Below, piece by piece: positions 6,301-24,000 of a DNA stretch of 64,000 bases. Position 1 is the stretch's first letter, and the number at the start of each line of letters is the position of its first letter. The notes under the pieces are model-generated. The model was given only the letters and a program-made list of their open reading frames with translations. It made no database searches and was not told the DNA's origin. The translations under genes were made by a program, and so were the position numbers. Origin of the DNA: Campylobacter concisus (GTDB taxonomy: Bacteria; Campylobacterota; Campylobacteria; Campylobacterales; Campylobacteraceae); assembly GCF_015230015.1 (NCBI RefSeq), contig NZ_JAAKZC010000002.1, positions 62,001 to 126,000 on the forward strand, written 5' to 3'.

Positions 6301-7626
6301 CTAAATTTTCCCACCAAACATCTCATACATCGCCTTTTCCTCGCCCCAAAGCTCGCGGTGCTTTTTGATAGATGATTTGATAGCGTTTATGAGATAGAGC
6401 ACGTCCTCTTTTGTGTGCGTGTAGTGCAGGCTAACTCTTACAAAACCTGGCTTTTTCTCTAAGATTTTATTCTCCTTAAGTCCAAGCAGATCAAAAGCAT
6501 AAGGCCCAGCGCACATCACGCCAGCGCGGCTTTGTATGCCGTGGTTGTTGCTAAGTGTTGCAGCAAAGTCATAAGGCGAAATGTCGCGCACATTAAATGA
6601 AAAAATAGGCAGTTTTTCTGCATTTTTAGGGCCATAAATGGTGATATCTTCGATGCTACTAAGCTCTTTTTCAAAGAAATTTGCTAGCTCATATTCGCGT
6701 GCTTTGATATTTTCTACTCCGACACTCGCTTGCAAGTTGTAGGCTAGACTTGCTCGCACTAGCCCCAAGATAGAGGGCGTGCCAGCCTCTTCAAGCTGCT
6801 CGGCATTTTTTATAAAAAGGTGCTTTGATGGCGTCGCAAGTGCGATGGTGCCACCACCTGCGAAGCTTGGTATGTCGCTTGTATAAAGCTCTTTTTTGAT
6901 CGCTAAAAGCCCACAACTCCCAACTCCGCCAAGTAGCTTGTGAGGCGAAAAAAAGGCTGCGTCAAAGTATGCAGCGTCTAAAATTTCATGCGAGCTGGTT
7001 GCCGCGCAGTCAAATGCCACCACTCCGCCAAATTTTTTAACGAGCGAGTAAATTCTCTTGTAGTCGGTTTTCACGCCTGTGACGTTTGAGGCGGCGCTAA
7101 AGCAGGCGATGATCTTTCTTTTTGCGTTTAGTTTTAGCGTCCTCTCAAGTATCACGTAGTCTATCTCGCCATTTTCATCAAGCAAGGTGCGCTCGCAGTC
7201 GCAAAGTCCCTCGCGGAAGCTGATCTCATTTGAGTGGTGCTCATACGGGCCAACAAGCACGAGTGGTAAATTTACGCTTCTTAAATTTGCTTCGCCGATC
7301 AAGGCTCTTGTCGTTGGCGGCAGATAAATTCCCATTATCTCCTGAAATTTCTTTATCGCAGCCGTTGCGCCTTGTCCTGTTGCGATGAGATAAAAGCTCT
7401 CATCAAGCCCCAAAAGCTCCTTTAACTCAGCCCTTGCGTTTTCGTAGCGTTTTTGCGTTAGCACAGCGCTTGAGCTGCTGTCTGAGTGAGTGTTTGCGTA
7501 GGTTTTTAAAAATTTAAAAATTTCATCTTCGATAGGCGCATAGGCAAGGCCTGAGGCCGTGTAGTCAAAATAGTAAATTCCATCTTTTAAAATGATATTT
7601 TTTCTTACTTCATCTATAGTTGGCAC
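6301..7626 (-). CDS. Class V aminotransferase, cysteine desulfurase-like
   Basis: A 441-aa PLP enzyme of the SufS/CsdA-like class V aminotransferase group. The PLP-binding lysine lies in 'FFSPHKLLGGVG' near residue 227, preceded by 'VVAFDCAATSSHE', which carries the conserved Asp. Near residue 371 'SRAGVMCAGPYAF' resembles the 'RxGxxCAxP' loop that holds the catalytic cysteine of SufS/CsdA desulfurases, so cysteine desulfuration is plausible. An aminotransferase annotation without assigned substrate is the safe alternative. It follows the modE/fdhD transcription unit on the same strand after an 85-base gap containing a hairpin. FdhD needs sulfur from a cysteine desulfurase, so a link to formate dehydrogenase maturation is possible but inferred. 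Confidence 0.75.
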   Translation of the reverse strand: MPTIDEVRKNIILKDGIYYFDYTASGLAYAPIEDEIFKFLKTYANTHSDSSSSAVLTQKRYENARAELKELLGLDESFYLIATGQGATAAIKKFQEIMGIYLPPTTRALIGEANLRSVNLPLVLVGPYEHHSNEISFREGLCDCERTLLDENGEIDYVILERTLKLNAKRKIIACFSAASNVTGVKTDYKRIYSLVKKFGGVVAFDCAATSSHEILDAAYFDAAFFSPHKLLGGVGSCGLLAIKKELYTSDIPSFAGGGTIALATPSKHLFIKNAEQLEEAGTPSILGLVRASLAYNLQASVGVENIKAREYELANFFEKELSSIEDITIYGPKNAEKLPIFSFNVRDISPYDFAATLSNNHGIQSRAGVMCAGPYAFDLLGLKENKILEKKPGFVRVSLHYTHTKEDVLYLINAIKSSIKKHRELWGEEKAMYEMFGGKI

Positions 7627-7711: not shown

Positions 7712-7900
7712 TTATTTGTTTAAGAAGTTTTTTTCTAACCACTCGTTAGCTTTTGCTTCACTCTCAAATCTTTGGCTCTTAGCAACTTGGTTTGCACCCT
7801 CATAGAAACGGATACGAATGCCGTCTTGAACGCTATCGATCTTGATTCTAGTGATCTTATCTTTGTTTAGATAAGTCCTGTCGTTTAGTTTTACATACAT
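7712..7900 (-). CDS. Small conserved protein (62 aa)
   Basis: A 62-aa protein that begins 'MYVKLNDRTYLNKDKI' and ends 'ANEWLEKNFLNK'. The ATG is preceded by a strong AAAGGAG site, so translation is likely. The sequence alternates short beta-strand-like segments with one C-terminal helix and has no cysteines or membrane segment. I do not recognise a family. It lies 24 bases downstream of modE in the fdhD-modE unit, so a role linked to molybdenum/tungsten or formate metabolism is possible on context only. Confidence 0.65.
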   Translation of the reverse strand: MYVKLNDRTYLNKDKITRIKIDSVQDGIRIRFYEGANQVAKSQRFESEAKANEWLEKNFLNK

Positions 7901-7923: not shown

Positions 7924-8667
7924 TTATTTTTTATCGTTTTTCTTTTCGTCTTGTTTTAAAAATAACTCTTTAAAGCGCTTATTTGCATAGTCTTCGATGT
8001 CGTTTTGAAGCTGTTTATAAGCGTTTATGAGCTCATAAGCTCTATCATTTAGCGTAGTGCCAGCGCTATCTCCGCCGCCTTGCTTGGTCGTAAAGAGATC
8101 TTCTTTTAAATTTTTTTGCAAAATTTGTAGGTGCGACCAGCATTTTTTATAGTTCATGCCTAAAATTTCAGCTGCCTTTGATATCGAGCCAACCTCGGCT
8201 ATAACGTCTAAAACTTCGGTTTTACCCTTGCCAAATATAAGCTCGCCCTCGTCGTTTTCTATCCAAGTCTTTGTCTTTACTCTCATCTTTTTGCCTTTCT
8301 TTTCCTTAAAACAGCCTAGCTGACAGTACTTCACGTCAAAGCCGTAGTCTCTAAGCGTCGAGCGCATGGTCTTTAGGCCACCGCTAGCTGCCGCCATATC
8401 CCTTGCATCTTTGCAAAAAACTCTGCCCTTTTCGTCGCTCACTTCTTTTAGTTTTAGTGACAATGTAAATTTACCGCGGTCTTTATCTAAGCCACCAAAC
8501 TGCCCAAGCTCGCAGTTATCTATCTTGATGCCAAGTCTGGTTGCCTCATCGCTCACTTCGCCGACTTCTATGCCAAGCTTGTTTGCGATCTTAAAAGCCG
8601 TGCCGCAGTCAAGTTTGCCGCTTTTATTTAGCGTTTGTTTTATTAGCTCTTCTAAATTTTTACTCAT
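7924..8667 (-). CDS. modE: ModE-like DNA-binding regulator
   Basis: A 247-aa regulator. The winged-helix region of the ModE/LysR type covers about residues 135-215 ('AEVGSISKAAEILGMNYKK', then 'TTKQGGGDSAGTTLND'). ModE represses molybdate/tungstate uptake and controls molybdoenzymes. This form lacks the usual C-terminal oxyanion-binding domain. In its place the N-terminal half carries two related motifs, 'NCELGQFGG' and 'YCQLGCFKE', each after a short helical repeat; these may form a sensing domain. I chose the ATG at 8667, within the last codons of fdhD, giving an eight-base overlap. C. jejuni has a comparable regulator controlling the mod and tup operons (established knowledge), which fits the tup genes in this window. 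Confidence 0.82.
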   Translation of the reverse strand: MSKNLEELIKQTLNKSGKLDCGTAFKIANKLGIEVGEVSDEATRLGIKIDNCELGQFGGLDKDRGKFTLSLKLKEVSDEKGRVFCKDARDMAAASGGLKTMRSTLRDYGFDVKYCQLGCFKEKKGKKMRVKTKTWIENDEGELIFGKGKTEVLDVIAEVGSISKAAEILGMNYKKCWSHLQILQKNLKEDLFTTKQGGGDSAGTTLNDRAYELINAYKQLQNDIEDYANKRFKELFLKQDEKKNDKK

Positions 8668-9442
8668 AAATTCTCTCTTCGCCGCTATAAACGTTGATAT
8701 TTTCGCCCCTTGCAAAGCCGCAAAGCGTGAGCTCAAATTTACGAGCGATCACCACGCCAAGGCTAGTCGGTGCTGTCCTTGAGATAAGCGCTGGGATGCC
8801 GTGCATAACGGCCTTTGCAACCATCTCCGAACTAAGCCTGCCACTCACCATCAAAAATGAATTTGCTAAGTTAGCTCCGTCTAAAACAGCCTTGCCAACG
8901 GCTTTGTCGATCGTGTTGTGCTGAGCGATATCCTCGCCTATGTAAAATTTATCTTCACTCACAAAAAGCTTTGCCGTATGCACGCAGCCAGTCATCTCAT
9001 AAAGCTCGCACTGCGTGTAAAACTCCTTCATTTGAGCAAGGATCATATCTTTGTTAAATTTAGCCCCGCTTTTTACGGCTCTTGCCGCCATCGCCTGTGG
9101 GTCGATATTTGCCGTTGAGCTTCTGCCACAGCCACTTATTATGACCTTTTCTTCGTCAAACTGCTCTAAGCGTTTTTCATTCACTTTGGCGCTTACATAG
9201 ACGCTTAGCTCGTCGGTTGAGAGCCTAACTTCAGCTATGTCTTCTGACTTTGTGATGACATTTTCGCTGACCAAATAGCCCACAGCAAGCGCCTTTTGAT
9301 CCGTTGGCGTTGCCATAACGGCACCAAATTTTTTGTCATTTATGTAAATTTCAAGCTTGATTTCACGCACCAAAATATCATCAACCTGCGCTTTTTGCTC
9401 GCCTTTATATTTGATGATCTGCGTTTTATAAATCGGTTCCAT
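8660..9442 (-). CDS. fdhD: Formate dehydrogenase sulfurtransferase FdhD
   Basis: A 260-aa FdhD. The protein transfers sulfur from a cysteine desulfurase to the Mo/W-bis-MGD cofactor, which formate dehydrogenases require for activity. Family motifs include 'PTDQKALAVGYLVSENVI', 'ISGCGRSS' near residue 100, 'TGCVHTAKLF', 'GEDIAQHNTIDKAVG' and 'MVSGRLSSEMVAKA'. The classical CxxC pair is not obvious: a single Cys sits in 'SGCGRSS'. The ATG at 9442 is preceded by AAGGAG. It has its own promoter, separated from fdhB by a terminator, and is followed by overlapping modE. Confidence 0.92.
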   Translation of the reverse strand: MEPIYKTQIIKYKGEQKAQVDDILVREIKLEIYINDKKFGAVMATPTDQKALAVGYLVSENVITKSEDIAEVRLSTDELSVYVSAKVNEKRLEQFDEEKVIISGCGRSSTANIDPQAMAARAVKSGAKFNKDMILAQMKEFYTQCELYEMTGCVHTAKLFVSEDKFYIGEDIAQHNTIDKAVGKAVLDGANLANSFLMVSGRLSSEMVAKAVMHGIPALISRTAPTSLGVVIARKFELTLCGFARGENINVYSGEERIYE

Positions 9443-9563: not shown

Positions 9564-9599
9564 ATTATAATTAAAATTTGATATGCAAGATAGGCATAT
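9564..9599 (-). promoter_or_regulatory. fdhD-modE promoter with palindrome site A
   Basis: A minus-strand TATAAT -10 box lies at 9564-9569, about 120 bases upstream of fdhD. An inverted repeat ATATGC-N7-GCATAT lies at 9581-9599, covering the expected -35 region. The same palindrome with the same seven-base spacer occurs upstream of the fdhA operon (14121-14147) and of fdhF (16942-16970). Its position over the -35 would suit repression, perhaps autoregulation by ModE. That assignment is inferred. Confidence 0.55.
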
Positions 9600-9633
9600 T
9601 TCTTAAAGTGTAAAATTAGAGAAAATAACAAAT

Positions 9634-9660
9634 TTTATAGGTGCAAAAAGCACCTATAAA
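9634..9660 (-). terminator. Terminator after fdhB
   Basis: A perfect 11-base inverted repeat (TTTATAGGTGC and its complement) with a five-base loop lies immediately after the fdhB stop codon. On the minus strand it is followed by AAAATTTGTTATTTT, a weak T-rich tract. It separates the fdhAB operon from fdhD-modE. Confidence 0.7.
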
Positions 9661-9661
9661 T

Positions 9662-10303
9662 TTACGCTTTTAGTTTTAGTCTGTCGCCAGAGTAGTAAGC
9701 GATCTTCCAAACAGTAGTTTGTTTTAGGTCTTTTTCGCCATAACCTCTTGCAGTAACTCTGTCATTGTAGATTTTTTCTATCATATCTGACTCACCAACT
9801 AATAAAGCCTTTGTAGAGCACATCGCAGCACAAACTGGCACTTTGCCCTCAGAAATTCTATCTTGTCCATATACTTCGCGCTCTTCTTCGCTATTAGTTG
9901 GTAGCGGACCGCCTGCGCACATAGTGCATTTATCCATTACACCTCTTGCGCCAAACGCACCATCCTTAGGGAATTGCGGTGCGCCAAATGGGCAAGCATA
10001 CAAGCAGTATCCACAGCCTATGCAGATATCTTTATCGTGAAGCACAATGCCATCAGCTCTGATGTAGAAACAATCAACTGGGCAAACAAGCGAACAAGGT
10101 GCATCTTCGCAGTGCATACATGCGATTGATGTTGAAATTTCTTTGCCAGGCATACCTTCATTTAGTGTGACGACGCGGCGTCTTCTAACGCCGATAGGCA
10201 ACTCATGAGCTTCATCACATGCTACTGCGCAACCGTTGCAATCAATGCATCTATCTGTGTCGCAGTAAAATTTAAGTCTATTGTTATCGTTAAATGCGCT
10301 CAT
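9662..10303 (-). CDS. fdhB: Formate dehydrogenase iron-sulfur subunit FdhB
   Basis: A 213-aa electron-transfer subunit with four ferredoxin-type [4Fe-4S] clusters. The Cys groups are 'CIDCNGCAVAC' (residue 18 on), 'CMHCEDAPCSLVCPVDC', 'CIGCGYCLYACPFG' and 'CTMC' with later 'CAAMC'. It carries electrons from FdhA to a membrane cytochrome b or another acceptor. No C-terminal membrane helix is present, unlike E. coli FdnH. fdhB starts directly after the fdhA stop. The cytochrome b gene fdhC, which follows fdhB in C. jejuni, is absent here: a terminator comes next. Confidence 0.93.
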   Translation of the reverse strand: MSAFNDNNRLKFYCDTDRCIDCNGCAVACDEAHELPIGVRRRRVVTLNEGMPGKEISTSIACMHCEDAPCSLVCPVDCFYIRADGIVLHDKDICIGCGYCLYACPFGAPQFPKDGAFGARGVMDKCTMCAGGPLPTNSEEEREVYGQDRISEGKVPVCAAMCSTKALLVGESDMIEKIYNDRVTARGYGEKDLKQTTVWKIAYYSGDRLKLKA

Positions 10304-10304
10304 A

Positions 10305-13130
10305 TTATGCCCTTTCTATGCGGCAAAGACCGCCTTTTGTTTCTGGAATTTGAGTGTTGATATCATATCCGTAGTTTGTTACGGTATTTGCGCTCTCGCC
10401 AACCGCAAATGGCAAAGTTCCTTCTGGGAAATTTCCAGTCATATCAACACCTTGCATATATCCAGCCCAGTGGAATGGCAAGAAGATCATATCAGGCTTG
10501 ACCGATGGCACGATCCTTGCACGAACCTTGATCTTGGTACCCTCAGGTGAATGAACCCAAACAAAATCCCAATTTTTAATGCCATGTTTAGCCGCTAGCT
10601 CTGGGTGGATGTCAGCAAACATCTCAGGCGTAATGCGTGATAGATACTTACTAGCACGCGTCTCCATACCAGCACCGCTGAAATTTACGAGACGAGCTGT
10701 AATTAAGTTGATAGGGAATTCTTTTGAGAAGTCTTTACTTTGTTGCAAGCTTTCAAATTTAGTATCAACGCGGTATTGTTTTGCTTTATCTTTAAAGCTT
10801 GGATACTTCTTGGCTAGATCTGGTCTTGGTGAGTGGATCGGCTCTCTGTGTTGAGGGATCTGATCAGCAAATGTCCAAACGATAGTTCTAGCACGTGCAT
10901 TGCCATATGGAGCGATGTTTTTCTCCAAGCATTTTGTTGCTATGATATTACTATCATCAGTTGACCAGCTAGCTCCGATTCTTGCTTTTTCATCATCAGT
11001 TAGTGTGATGCCTAAAATTTTCTCGATATTGTCTTTTTTGATCTCAGGATATCCACCATTTATAGATGAACCAACTGGCGCTGAGCCTTCAGCTGCTAGC
11101 TGGCTAACACCGTTGTGCTCTAAACCAAAGCGGTTTCTAAAGCCCATTCCACCTTCGCGAACTGATTTATGTGTATCATAAAGTATTGGGCTACCTGGGT
11201 GATTTTCTGTCCAGCATGGCCATGGAAGTCCGTAGTATTCGCCTTCAACAGGAGTGCCAGGCTTGCCAAGAGATGTTACTTCATCAAATTTATCCCAGTT
11301 CTCTTGGTGGCGTTTCAAGCGCTCAGGTGTCCAGCCAGTCATACCGATAGTTTTTATAATGTTTGCTATCTCGTGAGTAGCAGCTTCTGGCCACTCTATC
11401 TTACCATCAGCGCCCCTTATAGTGCGAGTTAGTTCGTCATAAAAGCCTATACGTTTAGCTAGTTCAAACAACAACTCATGATCTGGTATGCTCTCATAGA
11501 GTGGTTTGCACACTTGGCTTCTCCATTGACCACTTCTGTTTGTAGCTACGACTGTACCGCTACCCTCAAACTGCGTTGCAGCAGGAAGTAGATAAACATC
11601 ATCTTTTTTATTTGTTATAACGGCAGCGTCATTTACAAACGGATCTACACAAACAAGTAACTCAAGTGCATCAAGACCTTCTTGAACCTTTGCTTGTTGC
11701 GCAGTAGATGTTATGCCGTTACCTATAACTACAAGAGCTTTTAGACTATCTCCTGCATTATCGATTGCATCATTACCATCTTTACCATTTAGCGTACCAG
11801 CCCACCAGCGTGCAAGTGAAAATCCTGGCTTAAACATCCACTCAGGCTTGATAAAATTCTTTTGCAACCACTCGAAATCAACCTTCCACATTTTTGCAAA
11901 ATATTTCCAGCTTCCTTCATTTTTAGGGTAATAACCAGGTAGGTTATCTGGTAAATTTGCCATATCAGTTGCACCTTGAACGTTATCGTGGCCTCTTAGG
12001 ATGTTACATCCGCCACCACTTACGCCCATGTTGCCAAGCACTAGTTGCAAGATCGGAGCTATACGAGTGTTTGAGCTACCTATTGTGTGCTGAGTTAGAC
12101 CCATCGCCCAAACGACTGAGCCAGGGCGGTTTTTAGCATAGACTTCTGTGATCTCTTTAAGAGTTGCAGCTGGGACTCCAGTCACATCTTCAACGACTTC
12201 AGGTGTCCATTTTGCAGCTTCTTCACGAATCAGATCCATACCATAAACACGGTCATCAATAAATTTCTTATCTTCCCAGCCATTTTCGAAGATGAGATTC
12301 ATCATGCCATATACAAAAGGTATATCCGTTCCTGGACGAATTTGTGCGAAATAATCAGCCTTTGCCGCTGTTCTTGTATATCTTGGATCGATTACTATTA
12401 GCTTAGCGCCATTATTCTCTTTTGCCTTTAAAAAGTGTCTAAAACCAACTGGGTGATTTACCGCTGGGTTTGATCCAATTATAAAGATAGACTTTGCGTT
12501 TTGGATATCTCCAAGGTGATTTGTCATAGCTCCATAACCCCAAGTATTCGCCACACCGGCGACTGTAGAGCTGTGTCAAAGACGTGCTTGGTGATCTAGG
12601 TTGTTTGTCCCAAACATCGCAACAAATTTGCTTATATAATAGCTTTGCTCGTTGCAGTCTTTTGCTGATCCTAAGAACATAACTTGCTCTGGGTTTTTCT
12701 CGCGGTAAGCTTTTAGTTTTGCACCGATCTCATCGAGCGCTTGCGTCATAGAGATGCGTTGCCACTTGCCACCAACTTTTTTCATCGGATATTTTACACG
12801 GCAGTGTGAGCGCACCATATCGATAACGTCTGCTCCTTTACAGCAGTGACCACCAGCACTTACTGGGTGATCTTGCGCTACTTCTTGACGCACCCAAACT
12901 CCATTTTCTACCTCAGCTAACACTCCACATCCTACAGAGCAAACCGTACAGACAGTTTTTACTATTTTTGAGTCTGGAAATGGGTTTGCCATCTCTTGTG
13001 CTGTCGCGCTTCTTGTGACATTGCTCGCTGCAAAGCCGGCCGCGCCACTAGCGCCTGCTAATGCAGCCATTTTTAAAAACGATCTACGGCCGATGTTGTT
13101 TGGCGTAGCGTTTAGTCTAGCTTCAGACAT
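10305..13130 (-). CDS. fdhA: Selenocysteine formate dehydrogenase large subunit FdhA
   Basis: A 941-residue periplasmic formate dehydrogenase catalytic subunit read through an in-frame TGA at 12576-12578 (codon 185). The TGA lies in 'DHQARL-U-HSSTVAG', exactly where formate dehydrogenases carry the catalytic selenocysteine. Upstream are a twin-arginine signal 'RRSFLKMAAL' near residue 15 and a [4Fe-4S] motif 'CTVCSVGCG'. Downstream are molybdopterin-oxidoreductase motifs ('FIIGSNPAVNHPVG', 'GLTQHTIGSSN', 'RGHDNVQGATDM'). A small hairpin follows the TGA. The ATG at 13130 has AAAGGA at good spacing; the ATG two codons earlier overlaps that ribosome site. The enzyme oxidises formate and needs a Mo or W bis-MGD cofactor. 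It is followed by fdhB with a one-base gap. Confidence 0.95.
12549..12578 (-). promoter_or_regulatory. UGA selenocysteine codon and SECIS-like hairpin of fdhA
   Basis: On the minus strand the TGA (12576-12578) is followed 14 bases later by the hairpin CGCC-GGTGT-GGCG (12561-12549). Bacterial SECIS elements lie at this distance and present a G/U-containing loop to SelB. The stem is short, only four G-C pairs, but the spacing and loop fit. Confidence 0.65.
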
Positions 13131-13161
13131 TTTCATCCTTTCTTAAATTTCTATCAAAATT

Positions 13162-13335
13162 TTATTTTGCTTGTTTGTAGTAAAGTTCCCAATTTTTGCT
13201 TCTTTTATAAAGCACTTCGGTCTTTTTACTTTTTCCTGATTTTAAATTCTCACCAGCATTTGCCACGACTGCGCCACTGGCAGCGACGGCTCCGACTAGA
13301 CCGACTTTTTTCAAAAATTCGCGTCTATTTTGCAT
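13162..13335 (-). CDS. Small Tat-signal protein of the fdh operon
   Basis: A 57-aa protein that begins 'MQNRREFLKKVGLVGAV', a twin-arginine motif followed by a hydrophobic stretch to about residue 27. A short Lys-rich mature part ends 'NWELYYKQAK'. The ATG has an excellent GGAGGG site and overlaps the chaperone gene by 11 bases. It precedes fdhA by about 30 bases. Small proteins of this type occur upstream of fdhA in many epsilonproteobacterial formate dehydrogenase operons. They may assist assembly or export of the enzyme, but no function is established that I know of. Confidence 0.82.
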   Translation of the reverse strand: MQNRREFLKKVGLVGAVAASGAVVANAGENLKSGKSKKTEVLYKRSKNWELYYKQAK

Positions 13336-14020
13336 ATGTACCCTCCGATCTTAGTTTTCTTATCCTGTTTTTTTCTCTTCTTATGCTTTCAGATCTTGAA
13401 AGACCATCGCTCTTTTTGTGGTCTATCTTGACTGGTTTTGGTGAGTTTAGTGCCACACGCTCAAATGCGATAAATTCGTTTAGCAAAACGGCTACATCCT
13501 TGTAAATTTCACTATTTTTATGCTCATATAAATTCTCTATAAACTCATCAATGTTTGGATTTATAATATTTTTAAAAAGCTCCTCTTCGCACTCGTCAAA
13601 TTTACCGATAAACTCGTTCATAAGCGTAAAGACAAAGCCCACGTTATCTTCATTCTCTTTAAATTTACTTTCATCTCTTCTAATGTTTGTCTTAGCCAAA
13701 ATTTTACGCACATCGGCGCAAGCATGACCCACCTCATATCCCTCATCGTAAAAAGATAGTGAGTTTCGAAGCGGACTTGGTGGAGTGTGAAAAATGTCAT
13801 CAAATTCAGTGATCAAATTCTCTGGATTTTTTTCATTAAATTTACTTTTTATATTAGTAGCAGCATGCAAGACTTCATCGTTTAGGCTGTATTCTTCTAT
13901 GAGATCAAGCATTTTACTAAGACCATCAAATCTCTTTTCATCTTCACTAAATACAAAGAATTTAGAGAGAGTAGCGTAGTAAAGTTTTCTGCCAGCTGCA
14001 AATTCCTCTTTTGTGCTCAC
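13325..14020 (-). CDS. TorD/DmsD-like chaperone for formate dehydrogenase
   Basis: A mostly helical 231-aa cytoplasmic protein with the TorD-family pattern: 'LYYATLSKFFVF' near the N-terminus, a central 'TPPSPLRNSLSFYDEGYEVGHACADVR', here quoted in two parts as 'TPPSPLRNSLSFYDEG' and 'YEVGHACADVR', and 'NEFIGKFDECEEELF'. Such chaperones bind Tat signal peptides and guard cofactor insertion into molybdoenzymes. The client is probably FdhA, two genes downstream. I chose GTG at 14020 because AAGGA precedes it. A longer reading from TTG at 14050 lacks a ribosome site and lies against a -10 box. It is the first gene of the chaperone-small Tat protein-fdhA-fdhB operon. Confidence 0.8.
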   Translation of the reverse strand: MSTKEEFAAGRKLYYATLSKFFVFSEDEKRFDGLSKMLDLIEEYSLNDEVLHAATNIKSKFNEKNPENLITEFDDIFHTPPSPLRNSLSFYDEGYEVGHACADVRKILAKTNIRRDESKFKENEDNVGFVFTLMNEFIGKFDECEEELFKNIINPNIDEFIENLYEHKNSEIYKDVAVLLNEFIAFERVALNSPKPVKIDHKKSDGLSRSESIRREKNRIRKLRSEGTYAK

Positions 14021-14054
14021 CTTTTTCCTTAAATAGTTTTTTAATGACAATGCA

Positions 14055-14147
14055 ACTATACAATTAATTGCCTTATTAATGTGGCTTAAAATAAAATAAA
14101 TTAGAAAAGTTAAAAAAAGCTTAAATATGCCTTAATTGCATATTTAA
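14055..14147 (-). promoter_or_regulatory. fdhA operon promoter with palindrome site B
   Basis: A TATAGT -10 box lies at 14055-14060. Upstream, at 14121-14147, is a perfect inverted repeat TTAAATATGC-N7-GCATATTTAA with ten-base arms. The centre of the palindrome is about 76 bases from the -10 box. Site C upstream of fdhF has the same spacer and nearly the same distance to its -10, which suggests a common activator or upstream-acting regulator. The binding protein is not identified. Confidence 0.6.
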
Positions 14148-14265
14148 AAACGCTATTTTTAGGTGGTTATAGAAGATATGATTTTTTAGCAGAATTATTA
14201 AAATTTAGCTCTTTTTTGATATCCATTTTTATTTTTGGACTAAATTTAAAGAGTGGGAGTAAATT

Positions 14266-15219
14266 TTACTCTAAAGCTAGCATCGAGCCGTCTTCAAATT
14301 CTAAAAATACTCGCTCGCCGATCTTTGTAATTTCATCATCGTGGCTAAAAATTTTGATCAAAAAGTCGCCAACTTTGACCTTCAAAAGCTTTTCGTTGCC
14401 CATATAAAGCGAGGCCGAGTGCAGATAGCCTGAAATTTGACCCTCACCACCCGTTTTAGAAATTTTTATCTTGCTTGGATTGATCGTGATCTTGCTTTTA
14501 CCTTTGAAATTTGAAGGTAAATTTAGCTTTATATCATCGCCAAAGCTTAGCACGCCATCTTCTATCTCAAAAATATTTTTGTACTCAAACTCGCAGACTC
14601 TGCCTTTGTGTAAAAACACGCACTCGTTTGCTAGCATACTAAGCCACTTCTCGTCGTGACTTGCGATGACAAAACCGCAGCCATATCTCTCGTGCATCAA
14701 ATTTATAGCTTTGCTAAAGAGCTTTGAAGTGCCGATATCAACGCTGTTTGTCGGCTCATCAAGCAGATAAAATGGCGCTCTTAAAGAAAGTGCCAAAGCA
14801 AATGCGATGCGCTGCGTTTGCCCAGAGCTTAGCTCAAAGTGACGCTTGTTTAAAAACTTCTCATCAAGTCCTACAAGGGCGAGTGCTTCGCTAGTTCGCT
14901 CATCAAATTCGCTTAGTAAATTTCTACTTTTTAAAATGACTTTGAAATTTTCTCTTACACTTCTTTTTAAAAGGGCAGGTTCAGGCAGTAAAACGCAAAT
15001 TTTACGCAGCATTTCAAGGCTTGGTTTGCTCTCTCCCCAGAGTGAAATTTCGCCACTATTAGGGCTTTGTAGGCGTGAGAGGACACGTATAAGCGTGCTT
15101 TTGCCGCTGCCGTTGCTGCCCATTAGAGCAGTTATTTTTTTAGTATTTATATCAAGGCTTGGGATATTTAGGATCTCGTTTTTGCCGTAGTTTAGGTGTA
15201 AATTTCTTATCTTTATCAA
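14266..15219 (-). CDS. tupC: Tungstate ABC transporter ATP-binding protein
   Basis: A 317-aa ABC ATPase. Walker A 'GSNGSGKST' lies near residues 34-42, the signature 'LSSGQTQR' near residues 129-136, Walker B 'FYLLDEPTN' near residues 150-158, and the switch His is in 'IASHDE'. After about residue 225 a C-terminal extension with beta structure ('GKSKITINPSKIKIS', 'GEGQISGYLHSAS') resembles the TOBE domain of molybdate/tungstate transporters, which binds oxyanion or regulates transport. It lies nine bases downstream of tupB. Assignment to tungstate rather than molybdate follows from the neighbouring TupA-type binding protein. Confidence 0.88.
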   Translation of the reverse strand: MIKIRNLHLNYGKNEILNIPSLDINTKKITALMGSNGSGKSTLIRVLSRLQSPNSGEISLWGESKPSLEMLRKICVLLPEPALLKRSVRENFKVILKSRNLLSEFDERTSEALALVGLDEKFLNKRHFELSSGQTQRIAFALALSLRAPFYLLDEPTNSVDIGTSKLFSKAINLMHERYGCGFVIASHDEKWLSMLANECVFLHKGRVCEFEYKNIFEIEDGVLSFGDDIKLNLPSNFKGKSKITINPSKIKISKTGGEGQISGYLHSASLYMGNEKLLKVKVGDFLIKIFSHDDEITKIGERVFLEFEDGSMLALE

Positions 15220-15228
15220 AATTTGCTC

Positions 15229-15921
15229 CTATTTGTCGAGTTTTCTTAGCGCAAAGATCACTAAATTTACCAAAAATGCGATAAATATCAAAACCATCGC
15301 GAGCGCTATACCCATGGCAAATTCACCCTTGTTTGTTTCTAGCGAAACGGCTGTGGTGATCGTTCTGGTAAAATACTTGATGTTGCCACCTATCATCATC
15401 GCAACGCCAACTTCAGCCACGATCCTGCCGTAAGCAGTGGCGATGACGACCATGAGAGCGTAACGCAGCTCATAAAGCACGCAAAAAACTAGCTTTGCTG
15501 GCGCGAGGCGTAAATTTAGGATAGTTAGATAGTGCTTTTTCTCCATATTTTCAACCACGCTTGCAGTAAGCGAGATGATGATAGGCAGGGCTAGCACAAA
15601 CTGGCCTAGCATGACCGCTTTTAGCGTAAATAGTAAATTTAGGCTGCCAAGCGGGCCATTTCTCGTGATAAATGCGTATAAAATAAGACCAATGGCAACC
15701 GTTGGCATGGCTAGAGCTGTGTCACTTAGCAGGCGTAAAATTTTGCGCCCCTTAAAGTCGTAAAAACCAAGCGAAAAACCAAGTGGAAAGCCAACAATAA
15801 CAGCAAAAAGTATCGACACGCTTGATGTGTAAAGGGTAGCCTTGATGGCTGAATATGTTTCAAGATTGCCGTTTAAAAGTAGATTAAAGGCTTCTGCAAA
15901 GCCGTGAAGTAAAAAGTCCAA
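15229..15921 (-). CDS. tupB: Tungstate ABC transporter permease
   Basis: A 230-aa integral membrane protein with about five or six hydrophobic helices. The EAA loop typical of binding-protein-dependent permeases is visible as 'NLRLAPAKLVFCVLYELRY' near residues 140-158. Other conserved parts are 'YTSSVSILFAVIVGFPLG' near the N-terminus and 'YGRIVAEVGVAMMIGGN'. It forms the membrane channel of the TupABC importer. It is transcribed divergently from tupA across a 71-base shared promoter region, and tupC follows nine bases after its stop. Confidence 0.9.
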   Translation of the reverse strand: MDFLLHGFAEAFNLLLNGNLETYSAIKATLYTSSVSILFAVIVGFPLGFSLGFYDFKGRKILRLLSDTALAMPTVAIGLILYAFITRNGPLGSLNLLFTLKAVMLGQFVLALPIIISLTASVVENMEKKHYLTILNLRLAPAKLVFCVLYELRYALMVVIATAYGRIVAEVGVAMMIGGNIKYFTRTITTAVSLETNKGEFAMGIALAMVLIFIAFLVNLVIFALRKLDK

Positions 15922-15943
15922 ATATTGTTCCTATTTTTTTATT

Positions 15944-15967
15944 CATATTATTTTAATATGCTATAAT
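15944..15967. promoter_or_regulatory. Overlapping tupA/tupB divergent promoters with operator
   Basis: A perfect inverted repeat CATATTA-TTT-TAATATG lies at 15944-15960. It directly adjoins the tupA -10 box TATAAT (15962-15967) and contains a minus-strand TAATAT (15945-15950) suited to tupB. A regulator bound here would block both promoters. The half-site TAATATGC (15954-15961) equals the half-site of palindrome C near fdhF, and a weak second half follows after seven bases. Confidence 0.55.
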
Positions 15968-15992
15968 ACCACATTTTCTAAAAAGGAGAAAA

Positions 15993-16811
15993 ATGAAAAA
16001 GATTATTTTAGGCTCACTAGCAGCTGCGGTTTTGGCATTTGGTGCTGATAATGAACTAATCATGGCGACTACAACAAGCACAGATAACACTGGCTTGCTT
16101 GACGCGATCTACCCAGTTTATAAGGCTAAAACAGGCGTTGATATAAAATGGACAGCTGTTGGCACAGGCGCTGCGCTAAAGCTTGGCGAAGACTGCAACG
16201 CTGACATACTTTTCGTGCACTCACCAAAAGTTGAGAAAGAATTTGTAGAAAAAGGTTTTGGCGTAGAGCGCAAAGCTGTAATGTACAATGACTTCGTCGT
16301 TATCGCTGATAAATCAATCGCTGATAAATTTAAAGGTAAAGATATAAAAGAGAGCTTCGAGCTTATCAAAAAAGAGGGGATCAAATTCTTCTCACGTGGC
16401 GATAAGTCAGGCACAGACAATAAAGAAAAAGGCATCTGGAAAAAGATCGCTGGCGAAGTTCCTGAAAAAGACAGCTGGTATATGCAAACAGGCCAAGGCA
16501 TGCTAGCTACGATAAATGCGGCTGCTGAGCAAAAAGGCGTTAGCTTTACAGATCGTGGTACATATATAAAATATGAAGCGAACAAGAACGGCAACCCTGA
16601 AATGGTTATCATAAATGAAGGCGACAACGACCTTAAAAACTTCTACTCTCTAATCGCAGTAAACCCAAAACACTGCGCAAAAGCTGACATCGAGAATGCA
16701 AACAAATTTATCGATTGGGCTACAAGCGAAGAGGGTCAGAAATTTATAGGCGACTTCAAACTTCTTGACAAGCCACTTTTCACACCAGACGCAAATACAC
16801 GCAAAAACTAA
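15993..16811 (+). CDS. tupA: Tungstate-binding periplasmic protein
   Basis: A 272-aa periplasmic solute-binding protein. It starts with a short signal peptide ('KKIILGSLAAAVLAFG', cleavage near residue 18), then 'IMATTTSTDNTGLLDAIYP'. The TTTS motif is characteristic of TupA/WtpA-like tungstate-binding proteins. Further family features are 'GTGAALKLGEDCNADILFVH' (shown up to 20 residues) and 'FFSRGDKSGTDNKEKGIW'. A good AAGGAG site precedes the ATG. It delivers tungstate to TupBC, which serves the tungsten or molybdenum formate dehydrogenases encoded on both sides. It ends in a hairpin terminator. Confidence 0.92.
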   Translation: MKKIILGSLAAAVLAFGADNELIMATTTSTDNTGLLDAIYPVYKAKTGVDIKWTAVGTGAALKLGEDCNADILFVHSPKVEKEFVEKGFGVERKAVMYNDFVVIADKSIADKFKGKDIKESFELIKKEGIKFFSRGDKSGTDNKEKGIWKKIAGEVPEKDSWYMQTGQGMLATINAAAEQKGVSFTDRGTYIKYEANKNGNPEMVIINEGDNDLKNFYSLIAVNPKHCAKADIENANKFIDWATSEEGQKFIGDFKLLDKPLFTPDANTRKN

Positions 16812-16817
16812 TCCAAA

Positions 16818-16833
16818 GGGCGAGCAATCGCCC
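16818..16833 (+). terminator. Hairpin after tupA
   Basis: GGGCGA and TCGCCC pair around a GCAA tetraloop seven bases after the tupA stop codon. The following tract ATCTTATT is only moderately T-rich, but position and stem suit termination. Confidence 0.65.
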
Positions 16834-16941
16834 ATCTTATTATAAAATTTCATTTTTTTAAATTTATTTCTAATCACTTAAGCTAAAAATCAAATTTAAA
16901 ATAAGGCAAAAACGATAAAAGGCTCCGTAAATTCAGCGTCA

Positions 16942-17031
16942 AAGTAATATGCAAATTTTGCATATTACTTAAAATTTTTTTAAATTAAATAATTAATTTT
17001 AAAACTACTTTTATTTTATAAGGTATATAAT
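16942..17031 (+). promoter_or_regulatory. fdhF promoter with palindrome site C
   Basis: A perfect 11-base inverted repeat AAGTAATATGC-N7-GCATATTACTT lies at 16942-16970. A TATAAT -10 box lies at 17026-17031, 38 bases upstream of the fdhF ATG, and the palindrome centre is about 72 bases from it. Spacer and distance match site B of the fdhA operon. The rest of the 235-base spacer is AT-rich without a gene. Confidence 0.65.
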
Positions 17032-17068: not shown

Positions 17069-19312
17069 ATGCAAAAGATTGTTCAAACAACCTGTCCGTA
17101 TTGCGGAACTGGTTGCGGCATAGACCTTATCGTAGAAAACGGTAGGATAGTCGATGCAAAGCCGACTGATAACCACCATGTAAATGATGGCGAGTTGTGC
17201 TTAAAAGGTATGTTTGGTTGGGAATTTGTAAATTCTCCAAAACGTTTAACAAAACCAATGATGAGAAAACTAAACGGAGAGTTTAACAAAGAGGGCAAAC
17301 TCGAAGAGGTTAGCTTTGAAGAGGTTTATGAATTTTTAGGAAAGACTTTTAAAAATAGCGTAGAAAAATATGGTCCAAGTTCTATCATGGGCTTTAGTTC
17401 AGCTCGTTCAAACAACGAAGACAACTATGTATTTCAAAAATTCTTTCGCGCTTTAGGAAGTAACAACGTAGATCACTGCGCTCGTCTTTGACACGCTCCA
17501 ACAGTGGCAGGTCTTGCCAGCACCCTTGGAAACGGAACAATGACAAACGATCTTGTTGAGTTTGCGACTGATACAGATGTATTTTTACTAATAGGCACAA
17601 ATACAAGCGAATGCCACCCGATCATCGCTATGCAGATGCAAAGAGGCCTAGAGCGTGGTGCAAAAATGATCGTCGTGGATCCAAAACGCACCGATATGGC
17701 TAAAAAAGCAGATATATTCTTGCAAATTCCAGTTGGCTCAAACATCAAAACACTAAACACAATGATGAACGTCATCATCTCTGAAAATTTACAAGATCGT
17801 GAATTTATCGAAAAATATGCAGAGGGTTTTGAGTATCTAAAAGAAGCCGTAAAAGACTTCACTCCTGAGAGATTTGAGCGTGAGACTGGTGTGAAAAAAG
17901 AGCTCATAATTGAGGCTGCTAGACTTTACGCTAAGGCCGGCAGTGCGGCTATTTGCTACACTATGGGTATCACTCAGTTTAGTGACGGTACATCAAATGT
18001 ATTCTCACTTTCAAATTTAGCTATCCTAACAGGAAATTTAGGTAAAAAAGGCGCTGGCGTAAACCCACTTCGTGGCCAAAACAACGTTCAAGGCTCATGC
18101 GATATGGGTGCACTACCTAACGTCATCCCAGCAGGCCCAGTAAATAGTGCCTACGCACAAGAGCAAGCTCGCAAAGTATGGCACTTCGAGCTTAATCCAG
18201 TGCCTGGCTTTAAACTAACATACGCACCTGATAAAATGGATAGCGGCGAGCTAAAAGTGCTTTACGTTTATGGCGAAAACCCTGTTATGAGTGACCCTTG
18301 GACAGAGCACTTTGTGCATGCTACACACCACCTAGACTGCTTTATCGTACAAGATCTATTCTTTACTGAAAGTGCTCAAAAAGCCGATGTCGTCTTACCT
18401 GCAGCTGGTTGGGGTGAGAAAGATGGAACATTTATCAACACATCTCGCCGCGTTCAAAGAACCAGAAAAGCAAGCGAGCCAGTAGGTGGCGTAGAGCCTG
18501 ACTGGAAAGTAGTTTGCAACATCGCAAAAGCTATGGGTCTTGAGGGATTTGACTTCTTAAGTGCAGAAGAGGTTTGGGACGAGCTTAGAAAACTAATGCC
18601 TAAATTTTTTGGTGGTATCAGCTACTATAGACTTGAAAAACTAGGTGGCATCAGCTGGCCATGCCCTGATGAAGATCACCCAGGCACACCTGATCTTTAT
18701 ACTGATCACAAATCAATGCTACCTGATGGTAAATTCCGCCTAGCTCCAGTACTTTACGCTGACGATAAAGATAAGCGTGCAAGCATGGAGGCTGAATTTA
18801 AAGCCAAAATGCATATACCTGATGGCTATCCATTAGGTTCAGGCGCAATGAGCGAAGTACCTGATGAGGTCTATCCTTGCCTATTTACAACAGGTAGAAA
18901 AGTTTATCACTACCACACAGGAACGATGACAAGAGAGTGCCCACCGCTAGAGTATGGTGCTGGCATCGAAGGTCCGCTAATAGAAGTAAGCCCTGATATC
19001 GCAAGAGAAAGAGAGCTAGAAGATGGCTGCTACGCAATGGTAGAGAACAAACGCGGCAGGATCGCAGCTAAACTTCGCGTAAATCCTGACCTTAGGGAGA
19101 GTACGATATTTACGACTTTCCACTATAGTGAGGCTGATGGCAATGAGCTCGCAAACGCACAAGACCACGACCCACTCTCAGGTATCACACCTCTTAAGAT
19201 CACTATAGCTAACATAAAAAAATTAAGCGAAGAAGAGTATATAGCATTTAGACAACAAAACGAGATGTCTATGCACTCTGAAAAACCTTATCTTTCACCT
19301 GTTAGATCATAA
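17069..19312 (+). CDS. fdhF: Selenocysteine formate dehydrogenase, FdhF type
   Basis: A 747-residue cytoplasmic-type formate dehydrogenase read through an in-frame TGA at 17489-17491 (codon 141; E. coli FdhF has Sec at 140). The N-terminus has the [4Fe-4S] motif 'CPYCGTGCG' from residue 9 and 'GELCLKGMFGWEF'. The Sec lies in 'DHCARL-U-HAPTVAG'. Molybdopterin-binding motifs follow: 'LIGTNTSECHPI', 'MGITQFSDGTSN', 'LRGQNNVQGSCDMG', 'YVYGENPVMSDPW'. No Tat signal is present, so it should stay in the cytoplasm. It has its own promoter and terminator, and no electron-transfer subunit is adjacent. A formate hydrogenlyase-type partner such as a hydrogenase-4 encoded elsewhere is an inference. Confidence 0.94.
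17489..17519 (+). promoter_or_regulatory. UGA selenocysteine codon and SECIS-like hairpin of fdhF
   Basis: The TGA at 17489-17491 is followed 13 bases later by the hairpin TGGCA-GGTCT-TGCCA (17505-17519). Position and the GGTCT loop closely resemble the apical part of the E. coli fdhF SECIS element, whose loop is AGGUCU. Confidence 0.8.
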
Positions 19313-19601: not shown

Positions 19602-20624
19602 TTAGCTGACTAAGGCAAAAGTTTTGGCTGTTTTTGAATTGTCACCAAAATGCTCAATATTCTTATGTAGTGGAATTTGCCTATATTTGCTAACGCCTCC
19701 TTTTTGCTTGGCAGTTTTAACATTTATAAATTTTATGCCATCTTCTTCGCCTACACTTTTGCTATCAAGTTGCCAAATTTCATTAAGCCTTAGCCCAGTA
19801 TGAAGAGCAAATATCATATAGTTTCGTAGATCAAGCCTTTTTGTGTCAAAGATTATCATTAGTTCATCCATAGTGAAATTATCTTTCGGCGACTTCTCGT
19901 CGGCTGAAATTTTAAAGGATGTAAGCATTTTAAAAGGATTGGTCGTGAGCTTGCCCATCTTTATGGCATACTCAAAGAGCCTTTTTGAGTAAGATGTGTA
20001 GTTGTTGATGGTCTTTTTGTTGAGCTTTTTGCTTGCTAGAGTTGTTTGAAAATTTTCAGCATCGCTGTAGCTAAACTCTTTACCTTGATGATCTTTAAAA
20101 AACTCATCCAAGAGCTTGCCAGTCTTAACATAATAGCCCTTGGTTTTATCGCTAGATTTTAGCTTTAAACATTCTGTTTGCACATATCTTTTAGCTACTG
20201 CTTCAAAAGATAGCGTCGTGGCTTCTTTTGGACTTAAAGATGTATCCAATAATGTTTTGAGCTCGTTTTCAAGCTTTTCTTCTAGTGCTACTAGATTATA
20301 AAATTTAGCTATCACCTCTTTTGAGAGCTCTTTATATTCGCTAACATCTAAAAATATGCCATTTTGTTTAATGCACCGCTCATTTTGTCTTTTAATGTTT
20401 ATCAAGGCTCTTAGGCTTTTAGAATTTGCATGCGTCGTGGTTATCTTTTTAGAAAGAGCTTCGTTGGCTGCGGCTTTTATAGAATTTGCCAGTCTTACTG
20501 CCTCATCTAGATCTTTTGTAAAGAGGCAAAATTTAACAGTTAGCTTTTTACCATCTTTAAGAGCGGTATCAAAAAAGTAAAAATTTGGTCTGTTGGGAAC
20601 CTTTGTGATCAATCTAGAGCTCAT
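19602..20624 (-). pseudogene. C-terminally truncated tyrosine recombinase (integrase)
   Basis: A 340-aa phage/island-type integrase. A SAM-like core-binding domain spans about residues 140-240 ('YVQTECLKLKSSDKTKGYY', 'TINNYTSYSKRLFEYA'). It is followed by the first catalytic arginine in 'ALHTGLRLNEIW' and the beta-hairpin lysine in 'VKTAKQKGG'. The frame then ends: the HxxR box and the catalytic tyrosine are missing, about 80 residues short, so the protein is probably inactive. Its start lies about 145 bases from the 3' end of tRNA-Ser(GCT), the usual place for an island integrase. No cargo remains between it and fdhF except a second decayed integrase fragment. Confidence 0.75.
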
Positions 20625-20637
20625 AGAATGATCCTAG

Positions 20638-20672
20638 TTTCTGTAACAAAAGTGCAAATTTTCTGTAACAAA
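20638..20672. repeat. Direct repeat upstream of the integrase
   Basis: TTTCTGTAACAAA occurs twice, at 20638-20650 and 20660-20672, a period of 22 bases or about two helical turns. It lies between the integrase start and tRNA-Ser, where arm-type integrase sites or an accessory-factor site would be expected. Confidence 0.55.
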
Positions 20673-20768
20673 GCTGATTTGTCTGAAATTTAGGACAAGA
20701 ATATCTGCTAATAAATGCAGTTAAAACACCGAAATTTAGGGGAGTTGGAAAGAAAAATATTGTATTGG

Positions 20769-20859
20769 TGGCGGACAGAGAGGGATTTGAACCCTCGAGC
20801 CCCGATTAAGAGCTGCACCCTTAGCAGGGGTGTGGTTTCAGCCGCTCACCCATCTGTCC
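20769..20859 (-). tRNA. tRNA-Ser (GCT)
   Basis: The minus strand folds as a class II tRNA with a long variable arm. The acceptor stem GGACAGA pairs with TCTGTCC, the discriminator is G and CCA is encoded. The anticodon loop CTGCTAA gives anticodon GCT, reading serine AGC/AGU codons. The T arm is GGGTTCAAATCCC. It is probably co-transcribed with the tRNA-Phe gene 31 bases upstream. Confidence 0.93.
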
Positions 20860-20890
20860 GTGTCCATGAAAAAAGTTTATGAAAAAGAAA

Positions 20891-20966
20891 TGGTGGTTAG
20901 AGGCAGAATCGAACTGCCGACACGCAGATTTTCAGTCTGCTGCTCTACCGACTGAGCTATCCAACC
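20891..20966 (-). tRNA. tRNA-Phe (GAA)
   Basis: A 76-base minus-strand tRNA. The acceptor GGTTGGA pairs with TCTAACC, the discriminator is A and CCA is encoded. The D arm is TAGCTCAGTCGGTAGAGC. The anticodon stem-loop CAGACTGAAAATCTG gives GAA for phenylalanine. It is the first tRNA of a two-tRNA unit. Confidence 0.95.
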
Positions 20967-21082: not shown

Positions 21083-24000
21083 TTAATGCAAATCAACTAC
21101 ACTTACATCTTTATCTATCTCGATAAAAAATGTTTGTGCGCTTGCTCCGCTACCATATACGCCTTTATAGACTTGATTTACAGCGTGACCACTTGCATCA
21201 ACTGCTACTTTGTTATATTCATCTCCGATAACGCTATGTTTTGAATTTAGCATAGTTACTTCATCATTTGTTGCTTGTGTAAAGGTAGTTCCTTTGCCTT
21301 TTAGGGCTACTATGTCATCGCTGTCGCCAAAGATTTTTAGCACTGTGTTGATATTTTCTGTGCCAGCCTTGCCCGTTATCTTTGTGACCCTTGAGTCTAT
21401 GATATCAAGCACGCTTTTGGCGTCTAGTCCTATAGAGACTGCTTGATCGCTTGTGCCTAGCTGTATGCGCTCAAAGCTTTCTAAATTTTTATCAAGGTTG
21501 GCTACTTTACTAAGATCAACATCATCTACAAAGATAAGTGTATCTATGCCACCTTTGCCATCCATTGGCTTGCCATTATAGACAAAGGCATCGTTTAGGT
21601 TGCTTCCTACGGTCTCTGTTGCGTCATGTTTTAACTGCACAATGTTGTTAAAATCGTTTGTATCATCTCCGTAGTATTTGCCATCTCTTTGGAGGATCTT
21701 GTGAAATTTATTTGTTTCATGGTCTATAAAGCCATTTTGCTCTAGTGCTTTTACGTAGTTATCGCTAAAAAGATGCGTGCCACTATCAGCAGAGCCTATG
21801 ATCTTATAGTTAGCGTCGCTCTCTCCAGTCTTTTTTATGGCAACATCTAAATTTACGTTTTCATTGTCATCAACATATTGGATATTTATTTTATGAAAGC
21901 CTTTTTCTAGGGTGAAATCTTGACTTTTATTGCGATCGCCAGCCCACGTATTATTTTTAAAACCTTGACCAGCTATGTCTATACTAAATGCAGACTCGTA
22001 TTGGCTAGCTTTTATGGTATATCTGCCTGTCTCTTTTATATATATCCAGCCCTGCATTCTCATTATGAGATCTGTTCCTACTGGCTCTGCTTCTAGTAGC
22101 ATGTAGTTTCCAGTGTGATTTACATTGTATTTTGTGCCAGTGTGGTCGGTATCGCTTGCGTTTGGTGAGTGACCGACCCTTGCCATATCTTTCATATTTA
22201 GCTCACCTTTTTTTGGTTTTGTTTCTGGGAGGTCCCAGTCTTTGCCTGATCTAAATGTCACTTCATTAAAAGTTGTGGTAGCACTTACGTTTGTCCAGTC
22301 AGCCCATTCAGTATAGTGATTTTTTACATGAAGCCCCCAGCCACCATTATAAGTTGGATTGTCTCCACCTTTTATCCAGCCTTTGCTTCTACAATAGTTG
22401 TTAAAATCTTTATTTGCACAGTCATAAAACCACATATCCACATCAAGACCGCTGTTTGAGATCATTGAGACGGTTTGGACTGACATATTGCCAGCGTCAT
22501 CTAGCCTTTTGACGATGAAATTTTTACTACCGCTGGTTAGTGTCGTTAGAAATTCGCCTTCATATTTTAGGTCAGTTAGTGGCAAAATTTGTTTAGATGA
22601 GTTATTTACATCGACGACATCTACTTTTATAGATGTCTTGTCGTCTGCTCTGTTTGGTGTGTCTGCCTCGCCACCAAAGGTTACTTTGTAGCTTTGACCT
22701 GAGCCAGACTTTGAGCCACCAAAGCTTGGCTCTTTTAGCCCATCTGGCGTCGCATCAAGATCAACTGTGATGGTTAAATTTTCACTTCGTCTTTCTGCGC
22801 CATTTTTATCTACATATGTGGCATCTATGACGTGGTGCGTCCTATCTAGCTTTACGCCAGCTGCTTCAAAGTCAGCTACTACGACATTATCTTTGATATT
22901 TGCGTAAAAGCTACTTTTTACAACGCCAGCTTCGTCTTTTACCTCAATGAGTACTTTGCCACCATCTCCACCTATGGCTGTGTCTGTATCTTTTTGTGCG
23001 ATACCAAATTTGATCATTGGACTTTCGTCATTTGTAAGAGCGATCTTGTAGTTTATGCGCTCGTTAAATGTATCGTCAAATTTACTTGTTGAGATGATGT
23101 GCTCGAAGTCTTTTTCGAGTAGGTATTTGGCTGGGTTGCTTGCTCCGCCATCTACTGAGGTAACTAGCTTAACGTCATCTACATAGTCAAGAATGCCAAA
23201 TTTAAATAATCTACCACTAGAAGAGCCAGTGAAAATTTTGGTGCCATCTCTTACAAGGTCTATATCAACAAGGGTTGGCTTGCTGGTATTTACTGGCACG
23301 TCTTTGAGCAAGAAACGACTGCCATTTACTAGCTGAGTATCTGTTGGGTCATCTTTATTTACTACTTTGATGTATTCATCTGTAAGTGTTTTGGTTTTGG
23401 CTTCATACTCGATATCTGGGTCTGGCTTTTTCTCGTATGTGGTTAGAGTTTCGCCTGGTTTTGCCTCTTTTATAATGTAGGTTTTTATCTCTTGTTTGTT
23501 TGTATTTGGATTTAGCACAGAGACTTTTAGCTCGTCGCCTACTTTAGCTGTGCTTGGGATAGAGGCTAGGACATCTGAACCTGTGATAGTGACGCCGTTT
23601 GTGCCGTCTATCAGCCCGTCGCCATCTATGTCTTTTATAAATTTAGCCTTTGGCTTGTCGTCAAAGACTATAAACTGGCTGTCAGTTGTGCCTTCGTTGC
23701 CAAACTGATCGATGACTGTTGTGTCTATGCTAGTTTTTGCACCATTTTTGATAGGCACATTGATCTTAAATTTTCCACCACTTGCATCTATCTCGTTGCC
23801 ATCAGGTGCTATGACCTTGCCATTTTCACCGATAGTAAATTCTTTTGTTTCTATGTTTCCATCTGGATTTGTTATGGCTACTCTTATCTTTTCGTTTGGT
23901 TTGCTTTGGCTTGGGATACTTATAGTTACTTCAGTTTTGTCGCTATCGTTGCCGTAACCATTTTCAAATGTGTCGATCTTGTTGTCGCTCTTGCCATCTG

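Follow-up and report, generated by a model that had tools for sequence, protein, structure and literature searches.

A palindrome shared by formate dehydrogenase promoters of Campylobacterota, probably the operator of an fdhD-linked ModE-like protein

In a 64,000-nt stretch of the Campylobacter concisus genome (hereafter the window), three units related to formate dehydrogenase (FDH) are each preceded by a palindrome with the core ATATGC-N7-GCATAT. Which protein reads this palindrome, and which genes does it bring under common control? Campylobacter and many Campylobacterota of the deep sea draw electrons to a large extent from formate oxidation, and FDHs that depend on tungsten attract wide interest. 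C. jejuni was already known to have a ModE-like protein that lacks a metal-binding domain; the candidate operator, the phylum-wide list of targets and the conserved four-cysteine domain described below make the operator, the reach and the sensor of such a protein directly testable.

The palindrome in the C. concisus genome

The features of the locus are listed in Table 1. A sequence-only reading of the window had proposed three perfect palindromes, upstream of fdhD-modE, of the chaperone-fdhAB operon and of fdhF; all three were found at the positions and with the arm lengths (6, 10 and 11 bases) and the 7-base spacer that it gave. The spacer, said to be identical, is so in length but not in sequence, and site C is palindromic through its spacer too (14-1-14). 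The proposed geometry was likewise correct: site A, whose centre lies about 23 bp before the fdhD -10, covers the -35 region, and the centre-to-(-10) distances are 76.5 bp for site B (torD) and 72.5 bp for site C (fdhF), i.e. within the 72-77 bases announced.

The exact pattern ATATGC-N7-GCATAT occurs three times in the 2,013,281 bases of the genome, all at sites A to C, against 0.18-0.25 expected per genome (and 0.0009 in a 7.4-kb stretch); occurrence at the random rate, which was to count against a regulon, was thus not what we found. With two mismatches allowed, the 12-base pattern gave five matches in the window, which is chance level, so that the signal is confined to exact and near-exact sites; two-mismatch scanning was for that reason rejected as evidence. 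When the pattern was extended to AATATGC-N7-GCATATT with at most one of the 14 bases off, six sites were found in the genome, corresponding to five FDH units and a Sel1-repeat gene. Upstream of its near-exact site, at a distance of 81 bp, the second FDH operon has another copy with two mismatches. The Sel1-repeat gene shows no evident link; another palindrome, ATATGC-N9-GCATAT, lies about 170 bp from its site.

Table 1. Palindrome sites, promoters and genes of the C. concisus FDH locus, with the near-exact sites found elsewhere in the genome
Feature	Position	Strand	Description	Basis
Site A	9581..9599	.	ATATGC-AAGATAG-GCATAT, 6-base arms, over -35 region of fdhD-modE	exact match
Site B	14121..14147	.	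TTAAATATGC-CTTAATT-GCATATTTAA, 10-base arms, upstream of torD-like chaperone-fdhAB operon	exact match
Site C	16942..16970	.	AAGTAATATGC-AAATTTT-GCATATTACTT, 11-base arms, upstream of fdhF	exact match
Fourth site, near-exact	C3:89425		before second FDH operon	at most 1/14 off
Fifth site, near-exact	C19:41353		before second fdhF-like gene, which likewise contains an in-frame TGA	Fdh-alpha match
Sixth site, near-exact	G000:C16 48280-48298 (L012)		28 bp before Sel1-repeat gene, overlaps likely -10	one mismatch
tupA promoter	15951..15974	+	extended -10 TGCTATAAT and degenerate site; doubtful regulon member	
modE-like gene	7924..8664	-	proposed regulator	NCBIfam TIGR00637, 53 bits (below cut-off of 98.5); alignment; Foldseek
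fdhD	8660..9442	-	formate dehydrogenase accessory sulfurtransferase	NCBIfam NF001943, 316 bits
Probable -10 of fdhD-modE	9564..9569	-	TATAAT	sequence
fdhB	9662..10303	-	FDH3 beta subunit	NCBIfam NF038355, 331 bits
fdhA	10305..13136	-		ORFs flanking TGA; Fdh-alpha family match, downstream part
fdhA in-frame TGA	12576-12578	-	single, presumed selenocysteine	
TorD/DmsD-like chaperone gene	13325..14020	-	gene 1 of fdhAB operon	Pfam PF02613
Probable -10 of torD-fdhAB operon	14055..14060	-	TATAGT	conserved in promoter alignment
tupC and tupB (minus), tupA (plus)	14266..16811	-/+	tungstate ABC transporter	NF041774 (TupC), NF041772 (TupA)
Probable -10 of fdhF	17026..17031	+	TATAAT	invariant in 11 fdhF promoters
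fdhF	17069..19312	+		ORFs; Fdh-alpha family match, downstream part
fdhF in-frame TGA	17489-17491	+	single, presumed selenocysteine	

The FdhB protein is 98-99% identical to C. concisus records. From the sequence, the torD-like chaperone gene starts at a GTG (position 14020) after GGAAAAAGGT. The TupC and TupA matches are above the NCBIfam cut-off, and tupB was assigned by position and homology. A half-site next to the tupA -10 had been taken as a further member of the series. The half-site TAATATGC does exist, but it supplies the TGC of the extended -10 (15959-15967). A full-length site can be aligned there with 2 of 14 bases off (AATATGC-TATAATA-CCACATT); three other C. concisus genomes have not retained it, and tupA was on this account rejected as a firm member of the regulon.

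Conservation of the site and of its targets

The effect of spacer length gave the enrichment control. Among 48 Campylobacter genomes, 93 sites with N7 were counted, as against 69 for N8 to N12 together (13.8 on the average per alternative spacer); a reversed pattern was too lenient a control, its dinucleotides being different. The conservation in related Campylobacter, on which the regulon was said to depend, also holds promoter by promoter. Site A is retained in the relatives of C. concisus. Alignments showed the palindrome of site B and its -10 to be conserved across Campylobacter torD promoters, and site C to be conserved in 11 distinct fdhF promoters with diverged upstream flanks; in both cases the distance between site and -10 is kept as well.

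A scan with a single protein, FdhB, led to the FDH loci of many Campylobacterota, most of which carry sites that are exact or one base off, in the main immediately before fdhD; these loci belong to Campylobacter, Sulfurimonas, Arcobacter, Sulfurospirillum and Nautiliaceae records. The consensus of 70 non-redundant sites is AAATATGC-AAAATTT-GCATATTTA, where the core served for selection, unlike the A/T-rich spacer, the A at -10/-11 and the T at +10. We regard the palindrome as almost certainly a real protein-binding operator, and its distribution points to a phylum-wide one. A full-text search of open papers returned no description of it; a report in a subscription journal is still possible.

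In other families of Campylobacterota the sites precede fdhD-modE, torD-fdhAB, fdhF and fdhA, and the targets extend beyond FDH genes. Sites were found before wtpA, the gene for a tungstate-binding protein (L053 and L103, with wtpA above curated cut-offs), before genes for WtpA look-alike proteins (L058, L061, L066 and L080), and, in Arcobacteraceae, before an operon that comprises a cysteine-desulfurase-like gene, moeA and tup or wtp genes. In f10 genomes, tandem sites precede the gene for a molybdopterin (Mo) aldehyde oxidoreductase (L254 and L265). Such a set of targets reads as a regulon of Mo/W homeostasis. The proposed regulon, which was to join the FDH units, their maturation gene and tungstate uptake, stands for the first two and is conserved far beyond this genome; as to tungstate uptake, it would be true of relatives, and the case is weak in C. 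concisus, where it depends on tupA.

The fdhD-linked ModE-like protein and its coupling to the site

The protein encoded by the modE-like gene combines a C-terminal ModE-type helix-turn-helix (HTH) with an N-terminal half in which a repeat occurs in two similar copies, four cysteines being invariant (C19, C50, C83 and C113 in the numbering of alignment A1). Its TIGR00637 match covers nearly the full profile length (E = 2.6e-14), though below the curated cut-off, and its best PDB fold matches in Foldseek are ModE proteins (1b9m, 1o7l and 2ijl), by which it possesses a ModE-type winged HTH domain. The AlphaFold model (pLDDT 83.6) resembles ModE structures over the HTH only. The N-terminal half, modelled alone with a pLDDT of 86.5, has no significant structural or sequence match in the PDB; searches of Pfam and NCBIfam gave no match for its tandem repeat, nor for Mop/TOBE molybdate-binding domains in the protein. 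In Arcobacteraceae, the N-terminal domain and the HTH are encoded by separate, overlapping genes. Overall, the N-terminal domain is present in 144 of the 397 genomes of the phylum. The C. concisus genome has in addition a canonical ModE with two Mop domains, which matches TIGR00638 and is encoded directly upstream of modA (G000:C3 16940-18391, L124). The sequence-only reading had named ModE as candidate regulator: the choice appears right, the candidate being more precisely the FDH-linked protein of the fdhD operon and not the canonical ModE by modA.

The frequency of sites varies with the presence of this protein. Over the 397 genomes, the mean number of exact sites per genome was 2.25 with the N-terminal domain (save genus g2, which we take to include C. 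jejuni) and 0.59 without, and 2.18 versus 0.36 within family f6; these means ignore kinship, and the groups differ in FDH content as well. Single sites elsewhere may be fortuitous, as genomes without the regulator have about 0.6 exact sites each on average. In Helicobacter, FDH loci without a nearby ModE-like gene had no site.

The promoter of the second FDH operon (FDH-2) allows a comparison of C. concisus with relatives. In ModE-bearing C. concisus both tandem sites are kept, with 1 of 28 core bases and 8-20 of 160 flanking bases changed. Three relatives (G007, G008 and G014) have FDH-2 without the FDH-linked ModE: in the orthologous promoter both sites are lost, with 10 of 28 core bases and 35-36 of 160 flanking bases changed. 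The tandem FDH-2 sites are also absent from G031, where the ModE gene is broken, and from G042, where there is none. A search for FdhD in G007, G008 and G014, with no positive genome among its targets, gave no match, so the decay of their sites could follow a loss of FDH function, a possible alternative cause. The reverse situation is found in G027, which has retained the sites without the regulator; as fdhD could not be found in this genome either, the whole fdhD-modE unit may have been lost recently.

Loci were also compared by their recognition helix. Where it is of the usual MNYKKxWxH type, 47 of 52 loci have a site, as against 2 of 12 for the other helices (Fisher p ~1e-6, the loci not being independent). 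A near-exact site is missing from four intact ModE loci that have the usual helix (L050, L242, L054 and L090), two of which, L050 and L242, are probably the same genome. On these counts, helix and site mostly go together.

Candidate binders and mode of regulation

Binding by the ModE-like protein is a prediction from sequence comparison, and a different regulator co-inherited with FDH, be it one that senses formate, a two-component regulator or a metal regulator such as NikR, could bind the palindrome instead. It would suit the regulon of C. concisus, which is FDH-only apart from one Sel1-repeat gene, and the sites of G027, where no ModE-like gene is present. We nevertheless consider it unlikely: the sites before wtpA, before the moeA-tup/wtp operon and before the Mo aldehyde oxidoreductase gene of relatives fit Mo/W control, sites are absent or decayed where FDH occurs without the ModE-like gene, their presence follows the ModE recognition helix, and one of them sits on the modE operon itself. 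For the same reasons, the NikR-like regulator and the separate formate sensor admitted by the earlier reading found no support. The NikR operator, of the GTGTTAC-N13/14-GTAACAC type (PMC545781), also differs from the palindrome, whose spacer is 7 and whose half-site is another.

Much less probable still is binding by the canonical, molybdate-binding ModE beside modA. In its favour, this protein has Mop domains and is thus a true ModE, and a single regulator may act on several targets; however, its own modE-modA promoter has no site (at best 5 of 14 bases off), its helix reads GISYKNAWD, unlike GMNYKKCWSH, and there are no sites in G007, G008, G014 and G042, which keep its HTH homologue without the FDH-linked one. 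The siteless promoter and the absence of sites where only the homologue remains led us to reject it as the binder. The least probable explanation, to be practically discounted, is that of chance repeats or RNA hairpins (attenuators or terminators). The genome is AT-rich and two-mismatch sites are at chance level, but the exact sites, all at FDH promoters, exceed expectation more than 10 times and the enrichment is specific to N7. The lack of any Rfam match and the position of sites B and C, upstream of conserved -10 boxes and hence outside the mRNA, led to the rejection of an RNA element.

Binding of the palindrome by the fdhD-linked ModE-like protein is, on these comparisons, very probable; that the palindrome, i.e. 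AAATATGC, 7 A/T-rich bases and GCATATTT, is its operator as part of the full explanation that follows is a likely proposition. The comparisons support the conservation of the operator, its set of targets and its link to the regulator; that the protein binds directly, what it senses and in which direction it regulates are inferred. A dimer of the ModE-like protein would bind the two half-sites with its ModE-type HTHs. It would thereby place the FDHs and the gene for their maturation under common control, to which related genera would add the uptake of tungstate and the insertion of the Mo/W cofactor. Where the site sits on the promoter (fdhD-modE, and wtpA in relatives) the outcome would be repression: site A lies on the -35, and most fdhD and wtpA sites of other families have their centres some 13-60 bp ahead of the start codon, which are repressor positions. 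At torD-fdhAB and fdhF, activation or at least remote control would apply, since a site 72-77 bp upstream of the -10, with a spacing kept in relatives, better suits activation or looping. E. coli ModE both represses and activates. By analogy with it, a dual action may be envisaged here, its chances being evenly balanced. The four-cysteine tandem domain takes the place of the molybdate-binding domains and would sense Mo/W status directly, via a metal centre or via a partner; we lean towards a Mo/W-related signal. The protein could represent a Campylobacterota-wide ModE-like class whose undescribed four-cysteine domain senses W/Mo cofactor or redox-metal status and whose own operator governs FDH, tungstate uptake and cofactor insertion, a generalization that could go either way.

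The system has features in common with known ones. Like E. coli ModE, it would combine a ModE-type HTH with a dyad operator that is comparable in span and lies at genes for Mo enzymes and Mo uptake. It differs by the lack of Mop/TOBE domains, by the four-cysteine N-terminal tandem domain, the HTH being C-terminal, by the ATATGC-N7-GCATAT core with A/T flanks, where the E. coli consensus is ATCGnTATATA-N6-TATATAnCGAT (PMC545781), and by the siteless modE-modA promoter, whereas E. coli ModE controls modABC. The single-domain ModE of Desulfovibrio has likewise a ModE DNA-binding domain without molybdate-binding domains, and its metal sensing is unexplained; its predicted operator, CGGTCACG-N14-CGTGACCG, differs in sequence and spacing, and its predicted targets are mod operons, not FDH (PMC545781). 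As far as its published description goes, C. jejuni Cj1507c, which was given the name ModE, is also a ModE-like protein without metal-binding domain, encoded with fdhD/FDH genes; according to a summary of Taveirne 2009 (in PMC7011364), it represses modABC and the tungstate transporter, whereas the sites described here are on FDH genes, with no clear one at modA or tupA. Its operator sequence was not found in open papers. The ModE-like homologues of genus g2 lie within the FDH cluster, but this cluster has no such operator and the recognition helix differs, so that the C. jejuni data are not directly transferable.

A few other palindromes were observed. In part of genus g2 (L233, L235, L236 and relatives), where the ModE helix reads WLYIQD, a 9-7-9 palindrome, TAAATACTT-N7-AAGTATTTA, precedes a small Tat gene and fdhA. 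It is possibly an altered operator; a scan of whole genomes that tolerated one mismatch did not rise above background, which makes it only a lead. Six Arcobacteraceae loci (L156, L165, L166, L168, L170 and L174) were set aside: the GTTGTATATGCAACTATTGCATATACAA upstream of their MarR-like genes matches the pattern but looks like part of a different, longer palindrome. This long palindrome, around TTGCATATGCAACTATTGCATATGCAA, lies just upstream of the MarR-family-like genes and is probably an unrelated autoregulatory operator.

The surroundings of the locus call for some remarks. Directly after modE, a conserved 62-aa protein without family match is encoded (window 7712-7900, minus strand); its L066 homologue has a near-exact site upstream. 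Near modE lies a gene for a SufS/CsdA-like cysteine desulfurase (6301-7626, minus), and since modE of Arcobacteraceae is likewise followed, under a site, by a desulfurase-like gene, this enzyme may feed sulfur to FdhD. Downstream of fdhF, an integrase-like ORF (19602-20966, minus) beside two tRNA genes is followed by a gene for a 1596-aa repetitive protein (21083-25873), a region which looks like an island junction.
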